Positions 2,830 through 58,260 of a stretch of 64,000 nucleotides of DNA are shown here, piece by piece (the stretch's first letter is position 1; every line of letters begins with the position of its first letter). Source of the stretch: Tetmemena sp. SeJ-2015 (Eukaryota > Ciliophora > Spirotrichea > Sporadotrichida > Oxytrichidae); the NCBI GenBank assembly GCA_027382625.1, contig JAJKFJ010021226.1, forward strand, positions 62,001 to 126,000. Direction: 5' to 3'. The notes beneath the pieces are model-generated. The model was not told where the DNA came from and made no database searches. It worked only from the letters and a program-made list of their open reading frames with translations. The translations under genes were made by a program, and so were the position numbers.

Positions 2830-2853
2830 TTTGAATTATAAATTATTTTAAAG

Positions 2854-3480
2854 TCAGTGCTCATTATTAAATTTGGTGCTTATGAAGATTATTCTTTGAG
2901 AGATTGATATACTTTTGTAGATAAATAAATTATTCTCTAATGGGAGGTTGTGCAGGCAAGCAAAATGTTGTGAGGCCAACTGTTCAGTAGAAGATTGACG
3001 CAGCTGATAAAATGAATATCCTGCCTCTTTAGCCAGATCACCTAAGGCATTAGAAAGCGCTACCTTTGCTCGAGACTGACCTAGTTTAATGATTATATTT
3101 TCTAGTTCAAGTGATTGAAGTTGATCCAAAGACGCTATACGAAAGGCAACTGGAGTAACTGAAGAAGGAGAAGAAGAGCAAGTAACTGCAGACCACCAGA
3201 GGTGATTCTCCAACTCACATCAACTACTCCAACAACTAGAGTCAATCTAAAGTCACTGTCTTTTCCACCGACCAGGGGATGAGGGTAGTAGGTGAGAACC
3301 CAATTAATAAGTTCATTCAGAATGATTAATATGCGGTAGTGCCAAAGCTAACTGACAACACCTCTCTACAAACCATTCGCATAGCCAAGATCAGCGAGTA
3401 AAAGAAGAATCCAAATAAACTATACTTTGTAGCCACTTCTGGAGCGCCTAGTATATGAGAGAAAATGATTTTATTGTAAA
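2854..3480 (-). other. Open but unassigned stretch between channel gene and the 3.6 kb gene
   Basis: The minus strand has a 120-codon frame ending at TGA 2854 (contains ASLDQLQSLELENIIIKLGQ) and a neighbouring frame rich in hydrophobic residues further upstream (YSLFGFFFYSLILAM near 3380-3430). No family is recognised, the frames do not join without an assumed IES, and the stretch ends only 25 bp before the channel ATG. It may be an uncharacterised gene, an extra upstream part of the channel locus, or chance. Confidence 0.25.
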
Positions 3481-3598
3481 TTGGTTGTAAAATTAGAGAA
3501 CAAGAGCGAGTGAATACTATTATAATAAACTTTAAAATTGAGTATCGATATATCTCTATAAAATTTCAAACGATCCTTCTTGCTTAGAGAAGTAAAAT

Positions 3599-3970
3599 TC
3601 AATCATCATCATCGCTGTGCTTGGCTCCAAGTTGCTCCTCATCTTTGAAGCCCATCAAATCATAAATTTGTCTGAAAACCTTCTTGTCTTTAAAAGCCTC
3701 TTGCCAGTCTATATAACTCAGCATATCGTATAAGTTATCTAAACCTATAATTCTAAAATCGAACTACAAACAATTCATAACAATATTTAAGAATGCATTC
3801 TGTTCTGTGACTTGCTACTTTATTTTCTCCACCTTCCGTTCACTAAATAAGATATTAATTCACTGGCCTTGAGTTTATCTTCATCGAGTATTTGGTTGAT
3901 GCATTTTTTATTGATGATTTAATACGGCTAAATTAGGGTTTTAAATTATAGATTGAAATAAAATGCACGC
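3599..3970 (-). CDS. Small hypothetical protein with acidic C-terminus
   Basis: The minus-strand frame ends in LGAKHSDDDD followed by TGA at 3599-3601. The readable part is about 110 residues: an N-terminal helix-like stretch (INQILDEDKLKASERKVEKI), then NAFLNIVMNCLQFDFRIIGL, then DNLYDMLSYIDWQEAFKDKK. It uses TAG as Gln. A 20 bp IES (3845-3864) interrupts it. The start is not clear: no in-frame ATG is visible before the divergent kelch gene at 3963, so a further 5' IES or intron is likely. It is arranged head to head with the kelch gene. No family is recognised; a small adaptor or cytoskeletal protein is possible but unsupported. Confidence 0.55.
3845..3864 (-). other. Very short IES, pointer AGTGAA (TTCACT on +)
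   Basis: TTCACT at 3839-3844 and 3859-3864 flank only 14 bp of AT-rich sequence. Removing 20 bp joins KAS to ERKVEKIKQQV in frame; leaving it puts the two halves out of frame. Confidence 0.75.
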
Positions 3971-5877
3971 AAGCGACAGCAATCATGTAACCATTCCTCC
4001 TAAGTTTCATTTCATAACTCCCTAACATTCGCATTTATAGTTAGACAGAGAAGAATCCACTGGCTTCTATCAACGAGAGGTAAGCTCACTAAAGGAATTC
4101 GCATTTATAATATCAAAGTGTTGAGCAAATTTGAATTGCCATTTCTTAAAGTTTTGAATAATAGGATGCAGGGTGGATGGAAATTAGACTGCAGGGCAAG
4201 TTGCCTGAGAGAAGATCCAACCACGCCTCTTTCATTTATGAGAGTCAGTCCGCTCGCTAGTAAGTTTACAAGTTTCAATTATGAAGCTAAATTTATATTA
4301 TTGACATCTTACAACTTTAATAGCTACTTTGTGCACGGGGGTAGAGACCTCAAGGAGGGATCAATTGACAACATGTGGCGGCTAAATCTCGACGATTTGC
4401 AAAGACTAACTGAGGATCCCTTCTACCCCTGCCAGTGGGAGTTGATAAACTTTAACGGAGCAGGCCCAAATAGAATATCCCATCACACTTGCGGTGTCCA
4501 TGGCGATAAGATGATCCTCATTGGAGGTAAGTCCTCCTTTTAAGAATAACAGTGATTGCTTGATTGGAGAGTTATAATTCTATAATGTTGTATTAGTAAC
4601 ATTAATTAAAACCTTCAATATAGGACTGCAGGGTGATTCAAATAATAAGAACATCTATGTGTTCGATATCCACACTAACTCTTGGTCCTTGGTCACAAAC
4701 ATCACAGTAAGCTACAGATGGATTGAGTAGTCATTCTTATTTAGGGAGATAAACCGGAGCCAAGAGATGACCACACTATGAACAAGTGGGGCAATAACTT
4801 TTTGATTTGCGGAGGTTTCGTGAATGGCAGCAGAGTCAATGACGTCTATGGGTTTGAATTCAATCCTCAGAGCAAGTCTGTGGCTTGGAACCTAATTTAT
4901 ACTAACCCCAGTTCACCTTTGAAAAAAATACTTATGATTTATTGTTTGCCAAGAAACTCGCACACCTCAGCTGTGGTTGGAGATAAGCTGTATATACTTG
5001 GAGGATAAGATGATGAGAATAACAAGCTTGATGATCTGTGGGCCTTGAACTTAGGCACTGGTTAGATTGCTGAAGTGAAATACGATGCACCAGCTGAGTC
5101 TCAGATCGGGCGAAGTGGACACACAGCCGTAGCCTATAATGATAAGATGTTTGTATTCGGAGGTATCCTTGAGGTGACTAAGGAACTTAATGACTTGATC
5201 TGCTTCAACGTAGCTTCAAAGTCATTCACAGTAATCGATCACAACGGAGAGGCCGAGCATGTTTATCATTCTCGCTTTGATGAGAGCACCCATCAAAGTG
5301 CTTTAGCAGGCGGAAAGCAAAATGAGAGCAGCTCACCTACAAGAGGAAGAAAGTTCAACCAAAGCCCCACAAAGAAAGGCAACCTGGGAAACACTCTCGC
5401 CTCCCCTAATAAGAGAGCTAACCTTGGAGCAACTACAAGTGCTAACTCAGGAGCCAACTCTAGCAAGAACGCTCATCATGGCTCTTAAGCACATGGGAAG
5501 GAGGAGCAGAAGGGGTTGAGCTCACCCACCTCAGTCTCTATGCAAAACTCTTTCATCATTAAAAATGCTGATGAGAGCTTTGACCATTACTAAACGAGTA
5601 CTTCACTTAAACTAGTTAAAGTATACTCTTCTAAGTTTACCATTCCATGAAAAAGAGAAAGCAGCATGGCAACTAGACAACAATGCTTGACTAGTCTATT
5701 GGTCCTCATGGTGGAGCAGAGACTTCTAAGTTCGGAGTGGTGAGAGGCAAGAAGCCAACTCCTAGAGATGGGCATACTGCAAATGTTGATTCTCAAGGTT
5801 TCATGATGGTCTTTGGCGGAGATAGACACCAACATTAAATATAATCAAATGAATTCATAAATTGTGATATTCCTTGA
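3963..5877 (+). CDS. Kelch-repeat protein
   Basis: Beta-propeller scaffold protein, probably cytoplasmic. Kelch units are visible in order: YFVHGGRDLKEGSIDNMW (about 4325-4390), HTCGVHGDKMILIGG (4485-4527), NNFLICGGFVNGSRVNDVYG (4790-4850), HTSAVVGDKLYILGG (4960-5008), HTAVAYNDKMFVFGG (5119-5165) and, after an IES, DGHTANVDSQGFMMVFGG (5765-5820). Between units five and six lies a Ser/Lys/Asn-rich insert of about 110 residues. GT-AG introns lie at 4527-4623 and 4707-4744, and an IES at 5589-5644. The start is uncertain: ATG 3963 opens a frame with MHASDSNHV, but a 13 bp direct repeat (4027-4039, 4097-4109) would instead favour ATG 3985. TGA 5875-5877 is the first stop after the last unit. Its partner is unknown. 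Confidence 0.85.
4527..4623 (+). other. GT-AG intron in kelch gene
   Basis: GTAAGT...ATATAG, 97 nt. Splicing joins ILIGG to LQGDSNNKNIYVFDI in frame. Confidence 0.8.
4707..4744 (+). other. GT-AG intron in kelch gene
   Basis: GTAAGC...TTTAG, 38 nt. Splicing joins LVTNIT to GDKPEPRDDHTM in frame. Confidence 0.8.
5589..5644 (+). other. IES, pointer ACCATT
   Basis: ACCATT at 5583-5588 and 5639-5644. Excision joins NADESFDH to SMKKRKQHGN in frame and removes an in-frame TGA (CCA TGA). Confidence 0.85.
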
Positions 5878-5955
5878 CATCAAAGATAGAAGAGTATTGT
5901 CTGTGTTAATTTTTATAATTATAATAATATTGCATATATTAGTAAAGAAAAGGAT

Positions 5956-8900
5956 ATGCAAGCTGGCAATACTGCCCCCAATCCAATTAAGTTGGAGTCT
6001 GGGCGGCTCAAAGAAACCAAGATCAACATCTGCTCTTACGAAATGTATGAGATGGAGTTGCTGGACAGAGGACTAATTTCCCTGCAGCGCACTGAGGAGG
6101 CTTATGTGGACATCAATAATAGAATTATTGAGAACGTGAACTAGCGCAAGGGACGCCTCAATACCATCAATACCCGCATCCTCGGCATCTCTCAGAAAAT
6201 CCTTCAACTCTATGGAGTCAAGCAGGCCATGAGAATTGTCTCCCCTGCTCACTTCCCTGACATCCAGAAGGACAACAACAGCCAATCACACCCTCATCAG
6301 TCCATGTCAAATTCATCATAGATAGATTAAGATTTAATGTTCTTCGATCCAGTGCAAGGAGAGATGCCTGAGGAGAGTGGACTACCTGAGCTTAGTAAAG
6401 TATAGCTATTGATAATTAAATCAGATATAGATTTCCTTATTGGTTTAGCTTGAAGCTGAAGAAGTTGTTTAACAACAGACTACAGAACGAGCCAGAGTAC
6501 TTGAAGAAGCTGGTCTCTGGAGTGACCAAGGACATCAACGACATCTCCAACCTCCTGCTCTCCTTCAACCGCTATCGCTCCACCATTTCAGACTTCAAGC
6601 AGGGCCTCCAGTCCAAACACCACCATCATAATAACCAGCAGGCCTAGAGTCTACCAAGGCCCTCAAACCTGCCAGGTGGCACCTAAGAACAGAGTGAGGG
6701 ACTGCTCGGTAGAGTGCCTGAGAACACTGAGTCAGTGGCTGAGCTGATGCTGTTCGACAGCGACATCAATGTGTACGGAGACTCCAATGTCTACATTCCT
6801 GAGTTCGACTTCAGAACCAGGAGCACCAAACCAGTATCCAAGAACAAAGGGAATCACTTAAATGTAATTGTTCTTTATGGAAAGATGCGGATCGCAAGAG
6901 ATACTTATTATAGAAGAAGATTGCCAATCAGCAGAGAAATGCACTTCAGAACTTGCAAGAAGCACCCATTAGTGTAATGAAGAAAGCTGGAGACGAGGGT
7001 ATGATGATCAAGCAGGCGGCTGAGTCTATTGGCTATAAACATATCAATATTTATTGAGAGTACGATGGTTATGGTATTTTGGTTTACGCCCATTCACAAG
7101 CAGGCGCCCACTTACCAGTTCAAGGAGACTCTGGACGGACTTGGTCAGGTGACTGACATCAACGAGTACGATAAGGAGATCAAGGAACACGAGCAGAGGA
7201 AAATCCAGAAGATGCAGTCAATCCAATCTCCAATAAATCCATTCTATAAACTTGATTTATTCTAATGAATGATGCAGAGTCAGACTCAGAACCAGCTGAA
7301 CGAGTCCATGATGCACAACCAGACCTTGGGATAGACTACCAACAACCAGCCCTCTCTTAACTACCAGTACTCAAGGAACCAGTTCCAGGACTAGACCTAC
7401 AACAACAACCCCAACGACAACACCATGATCTCAGAAGTGGATATAGCACCAGCTGCTAAGAGAGCAATGGAGAAGGCAGAGTACGAACGCAAGAGACAGG
7501 AGGATGAAGAGATCAAGAGAGCCATGGAAGGAGCAAGCACTCATCGACTAAGCAAACGATGGAGGCAACGAGTACCAGGATGAGAAGGTCAAGGCCATCC
7601 CTGTGGAAGAACTCATCAGAAAGGGAATCACAAAGAAGATGAAGTAGATCTCAACCACAATGTCCAGGACTATGCAATCATAATACAGAAGTTAATTACA
7701 TTTATTTGAGCAAGGGGAGAATTTCTCTCAAGCACCCATCAATATGCAGACTGTTATGGACACCAACGTGCAAACTCAACTCAACTACCGCCAGAGGGGA
7801 GATACCATGATGACAACCACTCAGAGACCACCCATGTAACAGCAGCAGCAACCAAATAACTAGCCACCTCCTCAGTAGTAATAAGCTCCTCCTACTAACT
7901 AGCCACCAGGTCCTGGAGGTAACATTCCTCCCCCACCATCAAACATCCCTCAACCTCCAAGTGGTGGACCAGTAGTAAACAAATCCGCACCACCCCCTCC
8001 TCCTCCACCTCCTCCACCCCCAATGGGTGGACCTCCAGGTATAGTAGCAGGCAAACTACCTCCTCCACCACCCCCTCCTCCTAATCTTAATGCAAACACT
8101 TAACTCTCAGGCTTGAAGATTGCTCCTCCAGGACTCCCTCCTCCACCAGGTATACCTCCTCCACCAGTAGGTCTCCCACCTCCACCAATAGGTCTTCCAC
8201 CTCCTCCAGTAAATCGACCTGGCCCACCTGGCTTGCCACCTCCTCCTGGTCTACCTCCTCCACCTATGAACTTTGCTCCTCCTGGTCTTCCGCCTCCACC
8301 CATGAATAAAAACTTCGAGCCTCCTTCCCCCATTAACAACAGGAACAATATTCCAGACGATGCTTTGAAGAACGACGACTCAATTATCTTTGACGACTTT
8401 GAGGAGCACGCTTCCTTCATGTCTGGAATGGGAAAGGGCGGACCTATGATGCAGGAGAGTAGCTTTGCTGCTGACATGAATAAGTCCAGCTTCTTAAAGC
8501 CACTCAACCAACCACCATAGATGCCTCCTCCTAATCTGCCTCTGCTCTCTCAACCAACCTTTCGCTTAGACTATTTTAAACTTTATTTAGTCCAATAGAA
8601 TAATTGATTAAGTTTCTCAGACTCTCCCACCTCCTCCTTCTTCTCAGCCATCAAACCAGTAGATGAATCAGTCGATGTTGAACTAGTCTAACTACTAAGC
8701 TCAGAACATGACGATGAATCAGTCAACTGCTAATGTCAATGTGAGTATGCGTCAGTAGCCTCCCGCCCCTCCACTTGCCAAGGTACTCAGTTTCTCTGAG
8801 TAGATAGCTCTCGCTGCTTAAAACTTGCAGAAGAAAACCGTTGTAGTGGCACCTGCCACCACCGCTCCTAAGCTTGAGGAAACCAAGCAGCCTGCCAAGT

Positions 8901-21784: not shown

Positions 21785-21879
21785 AATAGGATAATAGTAC
21801 GTTTTCTAACTAGTACAATAAGTGCTGGTTTTGAAAATAGATCATTTATTACATTCCTAAATTTTTACTTTACTTTACT
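21785..21879 (+). repeat. Dispersed ~100 bp repeat, copy 1
   Basis: Begins ATAGGATAATAGTACG, contains TAGTAC and AATAAGTGCTGG, and ends in ACTTTACTTTAC. Clear similarity to 35881-35982 and 58119-58226. This copy lies in the spacer between Sly1 and the WD40 gene; the rest of 21637-22199 is featureless AT-rich sequence. Confidence 0.8.
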
Positions 21880-22199
21880 ATATATTGCAATATAAATAAT
21901 GTATAATTTGTTTTTTATTATGATCAAATTCAATAAACTAAAGAAGCTATTATATCATTTTTCTTGATTAATGAATATCAGCTAACTTTAAATAATTAAA
22001 GCTCTGCAAGTAAATCAATATCGAGAATAATAAATACCATTTTATATTATAGATTCATCCTTATCTAGAATTAAATTTAAATAAGATTTACCTAATTCTG
22101 AAGTAGAAATATTGGACCAATCTCAAAATAATAAATATAAAAATGTTTGCGAATTAAAGATTAGCTCAAATCATTTAGCAATTTAATTCTTATCAAGAC

Positions 22200-30200: not shown

Positions 30201-33200
30201 GCTCAAATAAAAAGTATATAATCTTAGTTGCTATAGTTTGTTGCAATTTTTAATTTAATCTCTGGATTCACGACAATTGAGTTTTGATATGACTGAGGAC
30301 GAGTCTAGCAACCTCCTTGGCTAGGCAAGCCCAAATAAAATTTCATATGAGTACCATTACAGTCATTAAAAATAAGTTATCCCTTTCTTTTATGCAATAA
30401 ATAATTCATGAAGAAGTTATTTTTGGGGCTCAAAAGATATTTAACATAATTTCATTTATAATTTTTTAGAGGTTGATGGCGGAAATCAGTACTTAATAAA
30501 TTGATGATCAGATAATCATTTGTGCCGATTTTAACCACCCGAGGAAAAGAGATTAAAAGCATTAATCAAAGCAATTACAAGAGGAGGAGAAGAAGCAGTC
30601 ACATCAATCGCAACAAAAACAGAAAACGAATTTCAGCGACAGTGTCTAAAAGAGGACAAAAATCATCAGTCTCCTACTTTAGCACTTAGTCGACTTCATT
30701 TCCAAACATTAGCCTCAGACATCTATGGCAATTTAGGCAATATCTTTATTATAATTCAAGCAAAAATTGTTATAATTAATTATACAAATATCTAATTATG
30801 GACAATCTTCAATTTATAAAAATATTTTTTCGTTTCAAAAGCTTCGCAACTTTTATCTTAAATTCCAAGTTATGATTTTAAAACCTTAATCAATTAGAAA
30901 ATGTATTCTCAACTTTATTTTTTTCAGTCTTTAAAATAAATATATTTCTCTTTAGTCGCAACCTTATTTTAATATAAATTGGGTTTACCTAATTTTGTTA
31001 AAAATAATAAATTGAATGAGGACTCAGTCTCTCCCATCTTTCAAGAGAAGCGTCCTTGAGAAGTACAAATCTCAGAGGAGAGATTTAATTAGAGAACTCT
31101 CAGAGAAAACCAAAGGGGCTCCAGCTAGTGGGAACGATCAGTTCAAAAAACACAAAGACTTGGACCTCATCATCAGTCGCTCCATCAACCGCCATATTAG
31201 AAAAATAGTAGTCAAAGACAAGCAGGGGAAATTTAAATTATATTTTTTTCCTAAATTCGAGACAGCTATCCTCAAGAGCAAAAGTCTTTACCCCAAGAAT
31301 ATTTATAAAAATAAAATTTTTAAAATACAGATAGCTGAAGCACGAGTACGAGACAGGTATGACTGCCAAGATGGACGAAGCAGAAAAATGGAGGTCGCTT
31401 AAAAGCGATCTATTTTATAATTATTTATCCAGAAAATTCAAGAAAGAGCGCCTTCAAAAGCCTACTCAAGACGATATGAACAATTTAGCAAAAATTGCTA
31501 TTCTCACAACAGAGAGTCGGAGGGACTCTACTTCTCAGATCCTAGGAAGAGGAAGTTATTCCTCTTCGTAATTTCTTTTGTGAGAAAGCTCATCGATGAT
31601 GGCGAGATTTTGCAAAGAAAAGACGCCGTTGTTGATAACATAAGTGAGCTCTAACACTTAGTCATCTTGTTTAATTTATTTATAATCACTAGAGTAATAA
31701 AAAGGAAAATATCGAAAAAATTTAATTATCAAATACAATATATATTGTCTTTTTAAAACAATTGTTTGAGTCTCTTTCCCAAGTATAATAGTGTCAATAT
31801 CCTATCTTTGAATTTAATGATGTCGTCTACGAGCCATCTCTCCTACTTGCTGCAACATGAAGCTATTTACTTCTGCCTCAAAGCTGTGACAACTGGCCCA
31901 CCTTCCCTTCTTAAGTGAGAATAAAGTGTGCTTTAAAGAGCCAATGCAGTCGATGTAAAATGAGGCTTTCGCAGTAAAATCTTTGCTTCTTAGCGATGTC
32001 TGATCCAATTAATAGGTTGCAGCCACTTATCCAGTCTATCCTAGCCAGTAATACTTTAAGTCAAAAATTGTTCAAAAATCCTATGGCGAAAAAAGAATAA
32101 AAGGCTGTAACATCGGTGTGCCACTCGCTGCTGGTGAACTGCTCCTACTGTGCTGAGTATGATATTTCTGCATCCAGTACAGGATTTTGAGTGAACCTCG
32201 CAAAGCCGTTGCCAAACTCTTTTTAGATGAATTATATACCTTCCTGCCAGATTTAGACCTAGCTGATTTCTTAGAAACTTGCACACTTTTTAGCCTGATA
32301 TAGGTGATTATCTTTAAATCATTGAACACTCTAATCATACTCTCAGCATCTTTTTGCAAGTCCGATTTCATGAATTGCAAATGATGCTTTCTGCCTCATT
32401 CTTACATAAAATGCTCCTCCAAGAAGAGGCCTCCTGACCCTTCGATGTGCTCTAAGATCATATTGAGCTCCAATCGAATTTTAAATTTGGCTCCTATCTC
32501 ATCAAAAGTCTGCGTGATACTTTTGCTGGCTTGAAGAAGGGGCTTCTTTTTTAATTGAAGAGTGATTGTTTCTCAAACTTTAATAAATGTTGTAACTCCT
32601 GCACAGAGACTAGCATAACTGATCCAAAAAGCAAGGTGGCTAAACTTAAGAATCTTCTGCTGTAGTCAATGGCAATGTAGAAACCTGTATCAGCTAGCAT
32701 GGCATAACTTTTTCTGAAGTGATAGCGTCTTGGCTAGGAGTGACTATTTGATTATCTTCGAGCTCAAGCTAGTTCAATACAAGAGGGTTGCACCCAGAGT
32801 TAAAGAGATCCCCCTTCCTATGGCTAGCAAGATGCGCCTTGAGGACACGAGAAGTTGAAACGCTCTCTACACATCATTACTTAGCTTCCACTAATATGTG
32901 CCTATCATTTTTGATTGTCTATAGAAGCCCTTGGCTCCTTCCTGGTTAACAACATAGCTCTTAAAATCTTGAGCTTTTATACTCTTTGACAATGAGCAGA
33001 CCTGAGCAGAAGCCTGGATCGATGGGGCTTTTGGCTTCTCTATTCTCTCCTTCGCGATAGCCATCCCTTAGACCAATCGTCACAGCCCCATTTCCTCGCT
33101 TTCTTTGTTCAGCCAAGCCATTGTTATAATTTTCATGCAGAGGACTCGCCAGCTCAGTTCACAGGGTATTGCTTCCAACGACTTGAGATTAGCTTGCGCT

Positions 33201-36200
33201 CTAATATTAAATAGTTGATTATTACTATTAAATAATCAAGCACTTAAAATTTAGTCCCACAAAGACATTGCCTAGAAGAATTTCAACACAGCGCCACCTT
33301 GACTATAGCAACCCCTCAGCAAACCCCAATCTAAGCAAGTCCAAAACCATACTTTCAATATCGAAATCCAGACTCTCTATGGGATTTCAAAATCCATACC
33401 TTTTCTTTGATAAAAAAAACTCAAAGACCATACCTATTTCTTTCTTTAGATTTCAAGCAGTGAAAGAAACTTGAACACTCTGAAGACATCCAAAACAACC
33501 CATCTATTTATAACCTTTGATTTGCCAGAGCAATGAAGCTTCGGAGGTACAAGTTTATGCCTTGACTAGTTTAGTTCGCTAGCAAATTTGTAGAGATGAC
33601 TCTGCTATTAAATTCCCATGCTGTAATTTAAGTTTGTGTAACTCAATTCATTAAGATTTAACTTGTTTATAGGAGGGCCACACAGATATGACTTGGCTCT
33701 AGTCATAATTAATTTGAACTTAGAGATCACGCGAGCATCATCCAGACTCACATCGCTAGCAGCTGGAATAAAAGTTTAGCTCCTAGTGAAACCTCTACTC
33801 TTATCTCTAGTCTAAAGATAAGCGATGAAATACTACTTAATCTTTGAGTTGGTTATCATCTACTCTCCCAGAAGAGGACCAGACTCTGCTAACTGAGGGA
33901 TGTCCTTTCAGGGTAGAAGTTTCTGATGAGGGGGCCTAGCTCACTAATATAAACGTTCCCAACTAATATGAATTCTTTGTGACAAGAATTTTCGAGATGA
34001 TACAAGGGGAAAAGGAGCTTTTGAGCTATCTCAACTACAATGAGAATATGGGCGAGCTGTCTGAACGCAGCTACATGCTTTTTATACTCGGAACTTTCAG
34101 AGGAGACTTTCTATAGAAGCTCGTCCACTCACAGCAATTGCTTAGAATGTAAAGTAGACTAGAAGAAGAGAGGATTGACACCATCGAGGTAAGCCCTTAA
34201 ATGCTTCGAAGTCTTGGGGCTCAACCCTATTATTCGAGTAAGAATTTGCGGTGGATATTGAAGGTAACTTCTACTGGGAAGCGTCAATAGAATAAGCGTA
34301 AGAGATTTTATATCAGCTGTGCTAATGATGGAGCAGAGGAGGCAGCCTTAGAGCAGGGAACTAAATCGATGGGCTGAAGATCCTTCAAAAGACATGAAAT
34401 TGTTTAGGTCGCTTCCTGCTAAAAGAATGCTGGATTAAAGTTTAAAATAAAGTAATTAAGTTTAAGTTACTTAAAATTAAACCTAATCACTCCAATTCTA
34501 TGACTCTGTCTCCTTTTTTCTGAGGCCATGTGCTATAGTGCGTCGGCAGTCAAGTTGCTCTTTCGACAGAATAGTGCCAGCTATGATGCTTATATACTCA
34601 GCCTGGCTCACTTTAAAGTCCTCTCAAGCGAGTGCTCGCTTGATGTGGCTTTTCACTTTGGATAGCACTTCCTTAATGTGGTTGAAACACGAGGAGAAAA
34701 GAGTGTTGAAGATAAGCTCAATGCATGAATCACAACAAGCCTTGTAGAGCGAAAGAGAATGATGGGCTATGATGTTATCTAAGAGCGCTAATAGTTAGTT
34801 GATGGACTAACCTAAGTAGCTTCAGCTCCCTTTCTTAAACTGTATGGTGATCGACATTTCGCGTAGAGTGAGCCCCTCTAAGCCTGCTCGTGAGCTTATC
34901 ACAATGAGAGCTGCCATAGTTTTGACTTTAATCCTCTCCTTGAAAAGCTCTTAATTTTGTTAAGGCTTAGCCCAAGACCTGATGCTAGCATGATACGGCT
35001 TGAGTATTATTTCGTCAAGTTAATGAAGTAAGCCTTTTCGCTTCTGCTGACGAGCATCCTTCTGTACACATAAGCTTGTGTCCTCAATATTTCCTCCTTC
35101 TTCCGTTGACTGAAGCTGTAGTAACTTCTTGTAGCCTTGAGCTTTTTGTCTTGCGTTCGATAGATGATTCTCAGTGAGCCCTTAAAGAGTATGATTTCTG
35201 GTGATGGCGATGGAACATGAGGCTTCTCTCAGAGAGGAGAGATGCTTCTGCTCTGCCAAAGTGTTGTCATTGAGAAGGTTGTACAAGTGCTCAAAGGTCA
35301 ATGGTTTGATAGACTTGGGTCTTAGACATAGCTCCATGTTGAGTGCTAGAGCTCCCCGGCAAAGCCTCTAGAAGTAATAAACTCCTACACCAGAAGCAGC
35401 TCTTATCTATGGGTAGGAGCAATAGATCAGGCTCTCAGCTGTAGGCTTCAAAGTTATGAACTTAAGCAAGACTTTAGGCTAAAGCAGCTATGATGTTTCT
35501 ACCTTCTTCCTCATCTCAAATTTAATTTAGATATCTGCACTTCCTTTATCCTTTATCCTAATTAATCCCTCTTGAATAATTTTATCACTTATTAAATTGA
35601 TTAATTAATCTAAAAATGAAAATATTAGTCTAGGAAAGTATAGTGGAGCATCTATGTGGATAAATTTTCAATTTCTGTATTTTTACGAGAGTAAAAGTTT
35701 TTGAGAGTGTGTAAATTGCAGATATAGAATGAATATGAGTTGTAATTAGAAAACTAAATACATGCTTAAGTTGGGGATGGATAAGAAAATAAAATAAAAG
35801 AATATTTCCACAATAGCTATTCTCTCGAATTTATAATGATTTTCATAAGTATTATCTATTTTATTCTCTTTGAATGATTACATAGGATAATAGTACGATT
35901 TTCAAACTAGTACTGAATAAGTGCTGGTTTTTAAATTGATTATTAATTATATTCCTAAAATTTTACTTTACTTTACTTTACTCTTTAAATGATTGGGTAT
36001 TACAAAATTGACATTTATAATTTACACTATGAAATTAAATAGTTTAGTGAAATAATTTTAAAGAATTTGCAAATGAAAGCGCAATACTGAAAATAATATT
36101 TAAATCCTTTTGAGAATAAATGAATTTATTTGAATTTATTTAATGATAAAATATGAAGACAATTTTAATAAATTCTTTCATATATTAACGTAATACATTG

Positions 36201-36387
36201 CAATTGATAAATTGTATAAATTATTTGAAATGATTTTTAGTCATCGACCAGATGCTCTACATCTATTATTATTTATATTTCAGAGAAGCATTTATTAATT
36301 ATGCTTATTTGTTTTAAATACTACTCAAAGAGTGAGTTCAACGAATTCTGCTACATTCCCAAGCCACTTCTAAACTTTCTAAAATGA
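27230..36387 (+). CDS. Gene A: hypotrich hypothetical protein in about ten dispersed MDSs (upstream duplicate)
   Basis: No known family recognised. Coding islands, each matched by an island in gene B (39.4-45.4 kb), are: 27235-27300 (LNLPIRVYPNKT), 28318-28440 (DEPFDLAASFLKDPSQEK), 28710-28800 (FKNFASALFKRG), 28920-29040 (HVYSGPMMFEQGHQFS), 29215-29330 (GNFNFEALIYNYPTLDS), 29735-29860 (YDELPALDLFRQIKSSQLSE), 30280-30360 (DESSNLLGQASPNKIS), 30470-30740 (FNHPRKRDQKHQSKQLQEEE; basic), 31017-31666 (LPSFKRSVLEKYKSQRRDLI; HEYETGMTAKMDEAEKWRSL; NRESEGLYFSDPRKRKLFLF) and 36237-36387 (IDQMLYI; YYSKSEFNEFCYIPKPLL), ending TGA 36385-36387. Synonymous third-position differences to gene B support real selection. 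A single-base break lies in an A-run near 31495. Codon GC is higher than in flanks. The last two MDSs are 4.6 kb apart (see nested locus). Confidence 0.65.
31234..31257 (+). other. IES in gene A, pointer AAATT
   Basis: AAATT at 31229-31233 and 31253-31257. Excision joins VVKDKQGKF to ETAILKSKSLYP. The same pointer flanks the homologous IES in gene B (44306-44331). Confidence 0.85.
31298..31340 (+). other. IES in gene A, pointer AAG
   Basis: AAG at 31295-31297 and 31338-31340. Excision joins KSKSLYPK to HEYETGMTAKMD. In gene B the homologous IES is about ten times longer because it holds a mobile element. Confidence 0.65.
31690..35670 (-). pseudogene. Minus-strand open region nested inside the gene A IES; broken hypothetical gene or germline-limited ORF
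   Basis: Reads right to left with coding-like composition over about 4 kb, beginning near 35660 (FIHIDAPLYFPRLIFSFLDQ) and including KPLTFEHLYNLLNDNTLAEQ, KPYHASIRSWAKPQQNQELF, ACCDSCIELIFNTLFSSCFN, EYKKHVAAFRQLAHILIVVE, SLEAIPCELSWRVLCMKIIT, NEGAK-type basic stretches and SFYIDCIGSLKHTLFSLKKG. TAA/TAG are used as Gln. Unlike other genes here, the frame is crossed by at least eight TGA codons (for example + strand TCA at 34822, 34624, 34284, 34129, 33080, 32774, 32397, 32072) and some frame shifts, and I found no pointers that would remove them. No family recognised. It may be a decaying gene, a mobile-element gene, or a gene with many tiny IESs. Confidence 0.45.
35881..35982 (+). repeat. Dispersed ~100 bp repeat, copy 2
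   Basis: CATAGGATAATAGTACG... TAGTACTGAATAAGTGCTGG ...ATTCCTAAAATTTTAC then (TTTAC)n. Lies within the large IES of gene A, downstream of the nested open region. Confidence 0.85.
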
Positions 36388-42400: not shown

Positions 42401-45400
42401 TGTAACTAGAAGTCAGATTCCTATTCTCTTATAGTTTGAATTAGAATATATGGATAAATTCTATTGAAATATGAATATTTTAAATTCTCACTTGAAACTT
42501 TAACTGTTTAAAATTTATTGTAGAATATTTATAAGAATTTTTATATAAGATTTTAATTTCTAGCATAAATTAATTCTATATTTCTCTATCTTTTTTTATA
42601 ATACTCTTTAATTAATTTACTGATTTATTAGAATTTTTATGTTTAGGCTTCTAAACAAAAGAGATTTAAAAATCCTTCTGAGGAGTCTAACAATCCTTTT
42701 GGTAACCCAAATCCTTGAAAAATTCCAAAAGAATTACATCAATGTCATTAAAATATTTTAAATCTTTTTTTTTGCTTTAAATTTGTTCATGAATATAAGG
42801 TTATTGGGTCTCAAAAGATATTAAACAATTTAAATATTATTTATTTTATTAATAAGAGGGTATTGGTTGAGACCGGCACTTAATAATTTAAAGTTGATAA
42901 ATGTACCGGTTTTGACCGCCCGAGGAAAAGAGAATTCAAAATTAAATCGAATAATACTTAAGAGGAGAAGAAATAACAAAAACCACAACAACCACAACAA
43001 TCAAAGAAAAAGAATTTTGAGAAAAATGCTATCAAGAGAACGAAAATCATTACGAGCATACTCGATCATTTGACTGGCTTCATTTCCAGCAACTAGCCCC
43101 AAACAAAGATGACTATATAAATATTAATCTAAATTATTTCGAGTACAATTTATCTTAAAAAATAAAACAAACAAAGTCAACTCTGAAAAAATAAACATTA
43201 CTAATAAAATTTAAAAATAAGTTATTAATTTAAAAGTATGAAAGCTTTAAAAATATTTCCTAAATATATCCTATTTTCAATTTTAAATAAATTATTATTA
43301 AGTAGAACTTCCAGAGGAAGATGCAGTTGATGATGGAACTGACTCGGAAAAAAAAGAAAAGAAAATGGAAATAAAAAAAGAGTGGTTGCAGCAGACGACA
43401 CACCGACTACGGAGACTACAATGCTTCTAGAGCAATCAAGGAACACTATATCACTGAGGATGAGTAGACACTGGCGGCGGCCACCCTATGACTACCGCAA
43501 TTGGGCACCCTGAATTAGACACTGGAGGCAGAGTACACGCTCTCTTTGCCCAGTCAACTGAGCCCCAAGCATGGCCCCGAAACCCCAGATTAACAGGCAG
43601 CTCACGCCTTCAATCAGAGAGGGTTTGAACGGCAGGGATTCCTGGCCATTGCTCTGTGCAGTGAGTTGCAACGCCCGCGTTATCGGCTGTGCCCCTGGTC
43701 AGTGGTCAATAGATATAGAGAGTACCAGTGATGTATTCAAGGAAGACCGAGCCCCCATATTTATGAGGGGACAGGTTGGGGTATTAAATAGTATATAATA
43801 TAAACCACTTTAATTCCTAATCTCTAATCTTCCTCTCGAAGTTCTATTAAAGAATGCTTGAGTTGATTAATTAAGCCTGATCTTTATAAAGAGGTTGGAA
43901 CTTCATTATTTTTTTTTTATACTCAATACTTCAATTCAATTCAATTTTAAATTCACACTTTATCGAAGTCTTTAACTTATTAGTTATTCATAATTAAAGT
44001 TTTATTCAGAAATAGTTCTTTACTTTTTAATTTAAAATAAGCAGTTAAGATATAATTTTTCTTTCATTTTTTCTAAATAATTAAATTATGACTCAGTCTC
44101 TCCCATCTTTCAAGAAAAGCGTCCTAAAGAAGTACAAGTCTGAGAGGAGAGATTTAATTTCAGAGCTGTCAAAAAAAACTAAAATAGGCGCCCCAGCGAG
44201 TGGACATGATTAGTTCAAAAAACACAAGGACTTAGACCTCGCGATAAGTCGCTCCATCAACCGACATATTAGAAAAATAGTAGTCAAAGATAAGCAGGGG
44301 AAATTTAAATTATATTGTTTTGGTCGAAATTCGAGACAGCTATCCTCAAGAGCAACATCTTTACTCAGCAACAATATATATATACTAGAAAATTTTATTA
44401 AAATCGGTGATTGGTTAAATAATAAATGGTGAGTTGCAACTTCGTGTCAGTTGAAATCACAGATTCACCCCCTGAACTGCTTCTAGTTCAAAAGCTAATC
44501 GAAAATTAATATGGTTTTCTTCTTTAATCATCTTCATAGCACCTCTTAGCAGCGAGATATGATGCGCACAACATCCCACTTTCCATATATGCTTTCTTGG
44601 TAATGTTGTGTCGCTTCTAATTCTTGACTGAGTGCGCCCACACAAAAGTTTCAAGGATATAAAATTCTTAGAATTTCGTGCTTAATCGAATGGTGTTATA
44701 ATTATTTAAATTTAACACTCTTCAACTGTCACTCATTTATTCCATTTTAATTTAATAATTAATTTAATTCTAATTTTCCATTAAATTCTCAATTATATAA
44801 GAAATAATTCTATTTTTAAAATACAGAGAGTTGAAGTACGAGTATGAGACAGGTATGACTGCCAAGTTGGAGTAAGCAGAATAATTGGAGGTCACTTAAA
44901 AGCGATCTATTTTATAATTATTTATCCAGGAAATTCAATAAGGAGCGCCTTTAAAAGCCTACTCAAGACGAGATGAACAATGTGAGTAAGAATTGCTACT
45001 CCCACAAAAGAGAGTCTGAGGGACTCTATTTCTCAGATCCTAATAAGAGGAAATTATTCCTCTTCGTAATTTCTTTTATGAGAGAACTCATCAATGATGG
45101 CAAGATTTTGCAAAGAAAAGAGGCCTTCGTTGATAACATAAGTGAGCTCTAACACTTAGTCAACTTCTTTAATTTATTCAAATGTAAATTATAATAAATT
45201 AATGCAAATGAGAAAATATTTCAGATTTAAATTTTATAGTCATTGACCAGATGCTTTACGTCTATAGCTATTTTTATTGCATTATGAGCTAAACTTTAGT
45301 CTTTTTTATTTACTATACTACTCGGAGAAGGAGTTCTATAAATATTGCCTCCATGGAATTAAAAATACAAATTTTCATCTTCTTCACGATCTTAGGCTTG

Positions 45401-46102: not shown

Positions 46103-46711
46103 GGGGGGGGGCCTTTCCTCGACAGTAAAATTTTATAATGAAAAAAAGTAAGTAAAAAATATGTTTATAGGATAATTTTCGCTCCTAAATCTGATTCTTC
46201 TAATTATAGAGGCCTATTCGAACATCTAAGGCCTCAAATTTTAATCCTAATTCAGTCAGTTAGAGGTCAGCTGCACCTAAATAAAATCTATATTTTTAGC
46301 TATTTTTTCGCTATTGTAAAATAAATTTAAAGCGCTATTTTTGAAATAGTGCAATATTTTTTATTACATAACATGCTTCAGCTATAAGCCCAAAGAAGTA
46401 GAGCTGAAAAATTGTAGCATTAGCCCTTTATCATGAATTAACATTTGGTTATGTAAAAATATTGGACTATTTCAAAATAGCGCTTTAAATTTATTTTACA
46501 ATAGCGAAAAAATAGCTAAAAATATAGATTTTATTTAGGTGCAGCTGACCTCTAACTGACTGAATTAGGATTAAAATTTGAGGCCTTAGATGTTCGAATA
46601 GGCCTCTATAATTAGAAGAATCAGATTTAGGAGCGAAAATTATCCTATAAACATATTTTTTACTTACTTTTTTTCATTATAAAATTTTACTGTCGAGGAA
46701 AGGCCCCCCCC
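46103..46711. mobile_element. 609 bp foldback (long inverted repeat) element with 8 bp target-site duplication
   Basis: Two arms of about 265-270 bp (46103-46372 and 46447-46711) are almost perfectly complementary around a ~74 bp loop. The element begins with nine G then CCTTTCCTCGACAG and ends CTGTCGAGGAAAGG then eight C. ATATTTTT occurs directly on both sides (46095-46102 and 46712-46719), consistent with an 8 bp target duplication. No open frame of size. The near identity of the arms implies recent insertion or ongoing correction. Class is inferred as a MITE or foldback transposon. Confidence 0.88.
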
Positions 46712-54014: not shown

Positions 54015-54125
54015 TGAAATATGCTTAACATTCACTTAAACAACTTTATTTTAATTTTTTTATTAAATGACTATTAATATTACAGCTGAGAATTTAATAA
54101 ATTAGAGAATTAAATTATATATTAA

Positions 54126-54477
54126 ATTAAAATGGAATAAATCAGTGACAGTTGAAGTGTGTCAGATTTAAATAATAATTAGACCATTCGATTCAGCATC
54201 AAATTCTAAGATCTTTTTATCCTTGCAACTTTTTCGTGGGAGTGCTCAATACAGAGTTATAAGCGACACAAGTTTTAATGAGGATGACGATGAGGATGAA
54301 GAGGAGTGCGATATTTATATCTCGCTGCTGAGAGGTGATAGGAAGGTGATTAAAGAACAAACTCATATTAATTTTTGATTCTCTATCGAACAAGCTGCAG
54401 ATCAGGAGATGAATCTGTGATTTCAACTGACACGAAGTTGCAACTCTCCATTTATTATTTTAACCAATCACCAATTT
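54126..54477 (-). mobile_element. ~350 bp germline repeat element, copy 2 (inverted)
   Basis: Reverse-orientation relative of 44403-44750: starts AAATTAAAATGGAATAAATC and ends AACCAATCACCAATTTT. Interior strings such as TCAGTTGAAATCACAGATTC (minus) are shared. Located in spacer, not in a gene. Confidence 0.7.
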
Positions 54478-55867
54478 TAATTAAAATTCCAACTATATTA
54501 AGAAATCATACAAAATAAAGGTAGCATATATTATAAGCCATAAATTCAATATGTAATTATTTTATAGAGGAACTCTTCAAATCTGATTGAAGGAAAATAG
54601 ATTTACCTTTTTCCAGTTTACTTTTGCAATAATAAATTTTAATAATATCCAAATAAATTTATTGCAATGTTTGCTCTGATTTTTGAAACATATATTTTGC
54701 TATATTTATGATATAAATAATGTGATTATATTTTGATTATTTGGTTTAATTTTTAACAAGAGATGCCTTTTATAATTACGTGTATTATTTGTTCGGTTGT
54801 TCTTTTCTCGCTCCTTATAATAAATGTTAATTATTACTCTTCTCGTTTTATATCTTTTCTCACAAGAGTATTCTCACTCTCTCTGAAAAATGAAGAAGTG
54901 TGAGTTAGTTAGGCAAAATCTTAGTCTAAGAATATAGTAATACTCCCTTTGCAAGACTACTATATCAACTAATTAAAATAATTAAATTAAAGTCAGGCTA
55001 ACTTATTCCTAAATTATGTTTTTATTTTAGAATTTATAAATATATTAAGAAAGATTCTTAATCTTTCCTTATAAATAAATTTTAGATAAAAATAATTAGT
55101 AATAATATAAGGGAGGCTATTTTCTTAGTGCTATTGCAGATCGTGCCGCTTTTATTATCCATTCTCTAATTCATTTAAAGTATTAATTATTATTTTTCAT
55201 TGAAGAAGGAGTCAGCGAGATAAATACTCGAGAGTGAATTCTGCAAATGAGAGGAATTTAGATTTAAAGGCTAAAACAATAAACATAGTCTCAAAGTATT
55301 CAGCAACTTTAGGAATATTTTTTAATCTAAATTAATTTCTAAACGTTCACGGTTTTCATCTGATAGTATAGTTAATCCTAAGCAATGATTGACTTATTGC
55401 AAACTCATAATTATATTGTAAATGCAACTTATTTCATAAGTTTAATTCAACTGAATGAAATTTAGCAATAAACTTAAAACCTTGATACCTCTGTTTCTCC
55501 AGATAAAGTATATAAAAAACACTAAAAACTTAAAATATTGCTTATATACTCAAAAAACCTCCACCATACTCCTCTTTCACAGACTCCCCCACTAGGATTA
55601 TTGACTAGAAACTTTAAAACCGCCCCTCTGTTATTATTTTGATCCTTTAAAATAAATACACAATTTAAATTATTTTATATATCTGTTTTTTACCTTTAAG
55701 AGAGAGAGAAGTAAGTTAAGACTCTGGGTTTTAGGGTTGAAAAAAATAGGAGTGAGGTAGCTAAGAAAGTTATAATTTTACACGGGCATAATTATAAATT
55801 AGGAGCAGCTGCAAATTAATTAGTAATAAATAAGATCTCAAATTTCAATTTAGAAATCAAATAAAAT
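54478..55867 (+). other. AT-rich spacer upstream of cyclin gene
   Basis: No conserved frame recognised. The last 200 bp would be the promoter side of the cyclin gene. Confidence 0.45.
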
Positions 55868-58260
55868 ATGAGTGAAACTTAAATCCTCGAGTACCAGCAT
55901 TCAGACATCCAGCAGCCACTTTTGGACAATTTTAGATAATCATTATTATTGTTCTAATTCTGCACAGCAGTTCGAAGAACCAGCTAAAAAGAAACAAATT
56001 TTGTTAAAGATTTGTAATAATAATTTTAAAGAGGCGCCCTAAGAGACAAAAGATGGATGCCGAGGAGTTCTTCAGTAAACTCGATAACAAAAGAGACACC
56101 CTCAAAGCCAAAGTATGTGAGATTATAAATTTTAAAAATATAGTTTCTATTATAGTATTTGATGTGACAAGAATTGTATTTAACCTTGTGGTGGGTGCAA
56201 TAATAGCAACAAAACAACCTCCATTTCTAAGGCTGCTTCTCAAAAAAAGCAGGCCTCTCAAAGAGTTAACTAAAGTCTCGAAGATGTCACTTACCTCGTG
56301 TAAGCATATTATTTATTTAAATTAATGCTGATAAAGGCCTATTTGTAATGATAGTAAAATAAATTTTTATATTTAAGAAGATATAAAAGAAGGATTTTAT
56401 CATTATACAATTTTCATCAATTCGAAATAATATATCATACATTAACTCAATTAATATGTGAGCTTTGGTTTCATTTATAAAGTAAAAATCACCTCTAATT
56501 TTAAGCTTAAAATTTATAAAAAATAAAAAGGAATAATTTAGTAACCTCGCAATGAGCGCTAGAAAGAAGGTAGCTGATGACGAACGTGAGGAGTGCAAAA
56601 AGGGGAGTCAATCTCTAAAAGGCAGCAAAGAGCATGACCTGTCTTCTTCTGATCACTCCCTCTCTTATAATAACTCCACTCAAGCTTTCATTTATATTCA
56701 TTTACTGTCCACCTTTGATCAGTCATGCAATAGGACAGACTCAAAAGTTAAATCATTATAACATTATAAGTATTCATAAGTTATTAACTCTAGCACCAGC
56801 CAAATTCATTCGTTCGGAGTGTCATCCTTAAACATCTCCTCACAGATGCCTTACACCAATTACTCTCACCCCTCTTACTAACAAACCGCAGAAGGCATTC
56901 CAAATCCCTCAGGCTTCGGATTATTCTTGGACGACCCAGCTCTAATTAATTACTTCAATCGATATATACATTTTTAGATTATTTTTGAGCGGCATTCATG
57001 AAATTCCACGGAATTAGCGAGGTACATCGGATTAGAATGATGGACTGGATGATTTAGGTCTTCAGAGTACTAAATAAGAAGAGTCCACGTACTTACATCT
57101 TAAACTCATTCACCTTATTAATTCTCACTATATCTTAGCTGGAAAGATCCTAGACTCCTACTTCCGCACTAAAATGCACCAGGGCCTGCAACTCGATAAG
57201 TCAGAGCTCCACATCGCTGGACTCAGCAGCATCTTCCTCGCCTCCAAATTTGAAGACACTAGACCTATCAGGATCAACCAGATCATTCGAATCATTGATT
57301 CAGTAGTTGATATCCATTTTTATCATGAGAGACGCCGCTCATGGAAAATTTTAGAAGGAGGAGATCTTGCTCCGTGAGTAGGACATTTTTTAGACTCTGG
57401 GCTGCAATTTATATCTAGAACATCACTTGGACACTGCCTCACAATTAGTTCTCACATTTTAAACTCTACTCTGTTTATATAATCTATATTATTGAATTGC
57501 TTAAGAGATTCTTGTACGAGAACCAACACCTCGAGATCAAAGTAAGTAAGTTATTTTTAATTTTTAATCAGCAAGGAGAATCAGTTAGAGATGTACAGAT
57601 TCATGGGATGCATGGGTCAGCTGATTGCGCATTCTATAGACTTACAGCAGTATTCTGCTGAATCTATTGGCCAGTCTCTCCTCTGGATCACCCTCAAATA
57701 CTTTAAGAATATTTTCAAGTACTCTCTCATCATCAACACTCAGCATGTATACATTGTAAATTATTTCTTAGCAAGAATTTGACTTCTCAACTCAGAACAC
57801 AGACAATTTAAACTTGCAGGAGCAGAAGCAAGCAACTCTTCTCTATCAATCCTTCAAGGCTTTTCTCAAGCAACAGGCTCTCGAAGGAGAGATCATTCAC
57901 TCTCACATATGAAATAAACCTAAACTGCAATATTTTTCAAATTCATATACATTAAGATGCTCAAGTAGAAGATCCAAACTCTCTACCTCAATTTAAAAAG
58001 GCAATAAAGTGAATGTTTTAACGTATTTCTAGGCTGAATAGCCCGCTCTTAAAAATCTTATAAAGAATTTCCCAGAGTATTTCACTCCTGAGTATCTTTA
58101 TTTATTTATCTTGACTTACATAGGTTTATAGTACGGTTTCTTGTCTAGTACTGAATAAGTGCTGAGATTTGAAATTGATTATTAATTCCATTCCTAAAAT
58201 TTATCTTTACTTTACTTTACTTTACTATTTATCTGGAATCATTCAGCAGAGTTTGAATGA
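55868..58260 (+). CDS. Cyclin (cyclin-box protein, A/B-like)
   Basis: Regulatory subunit of a cyclin-dependent kinase. ATG 55868 (MSETQILEYQHSDIQQPLLD), TGA 58258-58260. The N-tail is Ser/Asn-rich (KKKQKMDAEEFFSKLDNKRD; ARKKVADDEREECKKGSQSL). Cyclin box: HGISEVHRIRMMDWMIQVFR VLNKKSPRTYILAGKILDSY FRTKMHQ, then LQLDKSELHIAGLSSIFLAS KFEDTRPIRINQIIRI, and HGKFQKEEILLREQDIFQTL GCNLYLE, which carry the expected DWM..V, ASKxED and E..IL..L features. The C-terminal fold follows (LLKRFLYENQHLEI; MYRFMGCMGQLIAHSIDLQQ; SIGQSLLWITLKYFK). Seven IESs with clear pointers, including one that contains the dispersed repeat. The window shows no destruction box that I can identify with confidence, so B- versus A-type is open. 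Confidence 0.9.
55932..55959 (+). other. IES, pointer AATT
   Basis: AATT at 55928-55931 and 55956-55959. Excision joins IQQPLLDN to SAQQFEEPAKKK in frame. Confidence 0.75.
55999..56050 (+). other. IES, pointer ACAAA
   Basis: ACAAA at 55994-55998 and 56046-56050. Excision joins FEEPAKKKQ to KMDAEEFFSKLD in frame. Confidence 0.78.
56299..56549 (+). other. 251 bp IES, pointer ACCTCG
   Basis: ACCTCG at 56293-56298 and 56544-56549. Excision joins SLEDVTYL to AMSARKKVADDE in frame; the interior is very AT-rich. Confidence 0.85.
57103..57137 (+). other. IES, pointer ATCTTA
   Basis: ATCTTA at 57097-57102 and 57132-57137. Excision joins NKKSPRTYIL to AGKILDSYFRTK inside the cyclin box. Confidence 0.88.
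57296..57326 (+). other. IES, pointer ATCAT
   Basis: ATCAT at 57291-57295 and 57322-57326. Excision joins INQIIRI to MRDAAHGKFQKEE, restoring the cyclin box. Confidence 0.88.
58112..58234 (+). other. IES, pointer ATTTATCT, containing dispersed repeat
   Basis: ATTTATCT at 58104-58111 and 58227-58234. Excision joins TPEYLYLFI to WNHSAEFE and the TGA stop. The interior is almost entirely repeat copy 3. Confidence 0.82.
58119..58226 (+). repeat. Dispersed ~100 bp repeat, copy 3
   Basis: CATAGGTTTATAGTACGG... CTAGTACTGAATAAGTGCTG ...ATTCCTAAAAT then (TTTAC)n. It fills a cyclin IES, so it is removed with it. Confidence 0.85.

Follow-up and report, generated by a model that had tools for sequence, protein, structure and literature searches.

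The window analysed here, a stretch of 64,000 nucleotides of Tetmemena sp. SeJ-2015 DNA (contig region C2305:62001-126000 within a 146-Mb assembly of 5,213 contigs), holds two related genes, A and B, with collinear blocks within 27.2-37.5 kb (A) and 39.4-47.6 kb (B). At one junction gene A carries an IES of 4.6 kb, against about 80 bases at the homologous place in gene B, and within the longer IES lie a decayed DNA transposon and a short, young repeat. The short form of the B IES had been recognized in a first-pass annotation of this DNA; the length of 80 bp given there counts one 6-bp pointer, and the DNA between the two TAGTCA pointers (45157-45162 and 45237-45242) comes to 74 bp. The features, in window positions, are as follows.

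31016..31657, plus strand: left coding block of gene A (putative MDS), ending ...ELQHL, 84-90% identical to gene B over two blocks
31658..31666: pointer TTAGTCATC, left copy, a maximal 9-bp repeat
31667..36236: gene A IES, 4,570 bp between the pointers, delimited by the pointers and by collinearity with gene B
31667..31695: apparent remainder of the old IES on its left side, 29 bp, aligning with the start of the gene B IES
31696..31698: target-site duplication AAT, left, read from the sequence
31699..35574, minus strand (that of its transposase): decayed TBE-like DNA transposon, 3,876 bp, recognized by shared ends, duplication and gene remnants
31750..33087, minus strand: zinc-finger/kinase-like ORF remnant (57-kD position), four pieces over several frames, domains taken from other copies
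33713..34251, plus strand: reversed middle ORF remnant (22-kD position), two frames, by comparison with less decayed copies
34510..35460, minus strand: DDE_3 transposase remnant (42-kD type), sharing 54% identity with a 345-aa ORF in the genomic copy L037 (E 3.7e-90)
35575..35577: target-site duplication AAT, right, read from the sequence
35578..36236: IES DNA to the right of the transposon, 659 bp, GC 0.21, from composition and genome search
35880..35980, plus strand: young SINE-like repeat with a (CTTTA)n tail, best relatives 97-99% identical
36237..36245: pointer TTAGTCATC, right copy, a maximal 9-bp repeat
36246..36282, plus strand: right coding block of gene A, IDQMLY..., in a stretch of 49 bases 82% identical to gene B 45233-45281
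44400..44799: high-copy repeat of about 400 bp in gene B, absent from gene A at the matching place, from A/B comparison and genome search
45163..45236: gene B short IES, 74 bp between TAGTCA pointers, homologous to the gene A IES

The 9-bp pointers proposed in the first-pass annotation are confirmed. Taken alone, such a match is modest evidence, a 9-mer being shared within 6 nt by 928 of 200,000 random position pairs at equal spacing. A join across TTAGTCATC yields the in-frame product ELQHLVIDQMLY; the pointer repeat flanks the MDS junction and the frame is restored, the arrangement of a non-scrambled IES. As had also been noted, the junction of paralogue B falls at the same codon, its pointer TAGTCA is related, and the frame is kept in both copies. 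Pointer, frame and paralogue together lead us to infer that the MDSs of gene A would be joined at TTAGTCATC with removal of the whole IES.

Alignment of the two genes gives the blocks 31304-31680/44796-45178, 36234-36282/45233-45281 (E 4.5e-7) and 37169-37497/47306-47636. Since these are collinear, A and B look like tandem duplicates, with the 4.57 kb lying at a defined place. The third block is the most similar of all (93.6%), above the coding blocks adjoining the IES (85-90%). Single-base frame breaks between A and B occur at 31480-31490 (A) and at about 44880-44895 (B), in otherwise conserved coding sequence; these could reflect sequencing error or decay, and each copy is at most a putative working gene. 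A protein search with gene A found no relative, a weak result, two true frames probably being mixed in the query. A second contig, C3612 (84,830 bp), starts inside gene A at window position 31282 and appears identical to the end of C2305, the two agreeing at every base in the parts compared, its first 3,886 and its last 600.

Gene B has a repeat of its own at 44400-44799. Its relatives are 82-85% identical (best 40 of 3,612 candidates scored), and an inverted copy, 80% identical, lies 10 kb off at 54087-54498. Beside paralogue B there is also a foldback element of about 610 bp (46104-46711), whose long inverted arms end in G8/C8; it has at least 76 matches, mostly 86-99% identical (best 40 of 715 candidates scored), and is a young, apparently mobile family.

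The element in the gene A IES is dispersed in the genome. When each half of the insert was searched against the assembly, at least 43 and at least 44 matching places came up, the window and C3612 counted (40 of 71 and 40 of 108 candidates were scored, respectively). In window terms, the left boundary of similarity fell at 31694-31706 in 17 of 20 fetched loci and the right boundary at 35575-35579 in 16 of 20, two of the 20 being cut by contig ends, and the aligned copies end at a common terminus with ANT alongside. When 18 copies were examined for a duplication by script, three were unreadable, and among the 15 readable at both ends the ANT duplication was identical in 14, with one mismatch (L032, L033, L043 and the second copy in L044, truncated or incomplete at an end, were left out). 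Gene A's IES contains an inserted transposon with defined ends, a target-site duplication, gene remnants and relatives elsewhere, where gene B has the short form; the earlier suggestion that foreign germline DNA sits in an IES with a short homologue is borne out by the form of B, the AAT duplication and the dispersed relatives. One further copy (L031, about 2481-6569) has flanks of GC 0.39 and 0.42 that join into a 372-codon frame. Judged by composition and frame only, this may be a direct insertion into coding DNA, ANT serving as the pointer, in which case the same element may create a new ANT junction at one place and be hidden in an old IES at another.

Less decayed copies of the family carry a 345-aa ORF and a 514-aa ORF on the minus strand and a middle ORF on the plus strand, and TAA and TAG are read as glutamine in the transposon ORFs of this assembly. 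The 345-aa ORF of L037 contains a DDE_3 domain (E 1.6e-14); a protein search with the transposase returned one distant match (E 7.5e-4), which has PF13592 and PF13358, and a comparison by sequence with solved structures returned none. In the window copy the transposase remnant is interrupted by two in-frame TGA codons, and, as judged by eye, what we take to be the third catalytic residue of a DDE triad is changed. The 514-aa ORF shows a C2H2 finger in two of the three such proteins scanned, below the Pfam cut-off (23.6 versus 25.2 bits); its C-terminal part gave weak kinase matches (35 of the 36 PDB entries listed, best E 0.023), and no kinase domain was found there in Pfam. Most of the copies inspected have a plus-strand ORF where the middle gene would be expected, the match being one of position. 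The minus-strand open region of about 4 kb reported in the first-pass annotation did not hold up: the longest minus frame within the element is 251 aa (table 6), and the plus strand carries one of the three gene remnants.

A DDE transposase, a reversed middle ORF, a zinc-finger ORF at the other end and an ANT duplication are the features described for TBEs in the available text of PMC4724952, and the ANT target is also given in that of PMC12242761. The present element resembles TBE1, TBE2 and TBE3 of Oxytricha and other stichotrichs in its length of about 4 kb, the apparent order and orientation of its three genes and its ANT target, but, unlike TBEs, the family has ends without the C4A4 telomeric repeat and without a long inverted repeat. 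Thus, CCCCAAAA was found in the terminal 150 bp of none of 18 family copies (the shorter CCCAAAACC is present somewhere within 3 of the 18), nor was a telomeric repeat found near two divergent transposase starts. Six copies aligned end-to-end, cut at approximate ends so that a few terminal bases may be missing, gave short best alignments and no long inverted repeat; by eye, about seven terminal bases match between the element ends. TBEs have short tandem repeats between the 22-kD and 57-kD ORFs; at that place a tandem array of 33 bp x 3.5 is present in one (L038) of five copies examined. It is because telomeric ends and a long inverted repeat are lacking that we name the element TBE-like and not TBE.

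Canonical ends do occur in the same assembly. The published TBE end ANT-CAAAACCCCAAAACCC has 343 genome occurrences (170 forward and 173 reverse), against 0 for a reversed control, and one such telomeric end (L053) fits by eye, a few single-base gaps aside, the 85-bp Tetmemena TBE repeat of Table 3 in PMC4724952. Among the matches listed, many contig ends (e.g. C214, C223) have a telomeric TBE end with ANT some 105-125 bp away, which suggests that TBE terminal repeats break the assembly. When two telomeric TBE ends (801 and 811 bases) were compared with the two proteins of the family, no match was significant (best E 0.093), so kinship to canonical TBEs rests on organisation and not on sequence. 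A search of the literature, covering few subscription journals, found no non-telomeric TBE-like family besides the degenerate Paraurostyla elements. We raise, as a tentative and rather doubtful proposal, that a non-telomeric TBE-like lineage was recently active beside the canonical telomeric TBEs, with ANT as its target in old IESs as well as in coding-like sequence. Such a lineage could represent TBEs prior to the gain of telomeric ends, or one that lost them.

To the right of the transposon, the repeat noted in the first-pass annotation is confirmed as dispersed in the genome (35878-35987). At least 43 matches to this SINE-like repeat were found, the best 97-99% identical (40 of 1,256 candidates scored), and its flanks CTCTTTGAATGATT (35866-35879) and CTCTTTAAATGATT (35981-35994) read by eye as a 14-bp duplication in which one position differs. 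The repeat resembles a short retroposon of about 100 bp and seems to have arrived after the transposon. Two further copies in the window, at 21786-21882 and 58116-58231, have target duplications readable by eye. Rfam gave no match on 35600-36236. Some 530 bp on the right side of the IES are AT-rich and, one 67-bp match aside, present only here and in C3612; insertion of the transposon does not account for them.

The ends of the old IES seem to be partly preserved in gene A, where the similarity to B is weak, though somewhat above chance at both ends. Of the 36 bases of B past the pointer, 29 have a counterpart in A, and none of 200 Markov-simulated inserts gave more than 25. Among 2000 shuffles, 21 reached the A/B alignment score of the left IES ends and 56 that of the right ends; among 2000 real windows, 8 did so for either end. 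A tree built from 18 copies gives the one in the window a terminal branch of 0.18, whereas L036, L037 and L038 differ by 2-3%; these short distances beside the long window branch indicate that the family was recently active and that the window copy is a relic. The alignable noncoding A/B pieces differ by 0.43-0.45, or about 0.22 per lineage. A branch of 0.18 beside this figure fits, but does not prove, insertion into A after the duplication, the comparison being one between different kinds of DNA, with rates not known and for alignable A/B pieces only.

We consider it probable that a TBE-like transposon of Tc1/mariner type entered an AAT site 29 bp inside the pre-existing short IES of gene A. 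In this working model, tandem duplication would have yielded A and B, both with a short IES; the transposon would then have inserted into that of A and decayed, and the small retroposon-like repeat would have entered the same IES much later. As all of the inserts lie between the pointers, the machinery could still remove everything, presumably continuing to join the MDSs at TTAGTCATC and to eliminate the IES as one unit, and with the whole discarded at once, insertions between pointers would cost the host little. The IES may in this way serve as a tolerated landing site. Excision at these pointers, the low cost to the host and the order of duplication and insertion are all inferred from sequence. 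The pointer lengthening from 6 to 9 bp, in this one case, may accompany the longer span.

An alternative is that the transposon predates the duplication and itself made the IES, most of which B then lost by deletion, keeping 74 bp. The origin of IESs from transposons is an established model (PMC9797194), the AGT in the pointer core fits ANT, and the dating is not decisive. Nevertheless, the AAT duplications sit 29 bp and 659 bp inside the pointers, the ends of the B IES align with the residual IES of A and not with the element, and the B IES had no match to the element in a low-threshold A/B comparison, for which reasons we regard this order of events as unlikely. Somewhat less likely still is that A and B are germline-limited pseudogenes whose pointers are no longer used, with nothing spliced. 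The frame breaks between A and B and the fruitless protein search, for all its probably mixed query, would suit such a state, as would the finding that assembly matches to the genes are limited to A and B themselves, the redundant C3612 and one 72% piece in C1000; yet coding blocks are 85-90% identical whereas alignable noncoding pieces are 66-67% identical, the pointer junction is in frame in both copies, and the indels could be errors of a hybrid draft. That the juxtaposition is an assembly misjoin is very improbable: the redundant contig matches C2305 from window 31282, and PMC9797194 describes the Tetmemena draft as broken up at repeats, but a misjoin would not yield matching AAT duplications round a complete element in a collinear A/B frame. 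Equally remote is the reading that the IES encloses an entire host locus, the precursor of another nanochromosome, in Russian-doll fashion, since although such loci exist in Oxytricha (PMC5940158) and the GC of the insert (0.40) is above that of the surrounding IES DNA (0.17-0.21), the coding-like sequence maps to transposon genes in a repeated element with transposon ends. A nested host gene was rejected, no host domain being found in the seven ORF pieces scanned (best E 0.073), and the whole locus that the first-pass annotation had placed inside the IES is a decayed transposon.

Insertion into the existing IES of gene A, our preferred reading, leaves a matched pair in one genome, an IES with and an IES without a transposon at the same codon and with related pointers, and makes testable at the single-base level whether a transposon lands in an IES that is already there or gives rise to a new one. 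A TBE-like family whose ends carry no telomeric repeat also bears on how TBEs gained their telomeric ends and, if the proposed lineage is real, it would enlarge old IESs without forming a new junction.

According to Feng et al. (PMC9797194), many TBE insertions sit within IESs; they concluded that transposons mainly create new IESs, and saw no case of entry into an existing IES for Tetmemena relative to Oxytricha. The locus resembles the cases given there in having a transposon within an IES whose junction also exists without the element, but those cases were compared between species, none of them in the Tetmemena direction, whereas here the two forms belong to tandem paralogues in a single genome. 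Paralogues with IESs at homologous positions are noted in PMC10901763. Like the degenerate TBEs of Paraurostyla, as PMC4724952 describes them, the element has TBE-type genes without the usual terminal repeats; in the Paraurostyla elements the 57-kD ORF is inverted, whereas here it has the usual orientation and the ends with their ANT duplications are intact. As in the Russian-doll loci treated in the available text of PMC5940158, DNA is nested between two MDSs of another gene, but there it consists of host MDSs and here of a dead transposon and a short repeat. The present case is of the rarer kind, a transposon entering an existing IES, seen between paralogues. TBE-bearing IESs are already known; the additions made here are the control provided by a tandem paralogue and a TBE-like family without telomeric ends.
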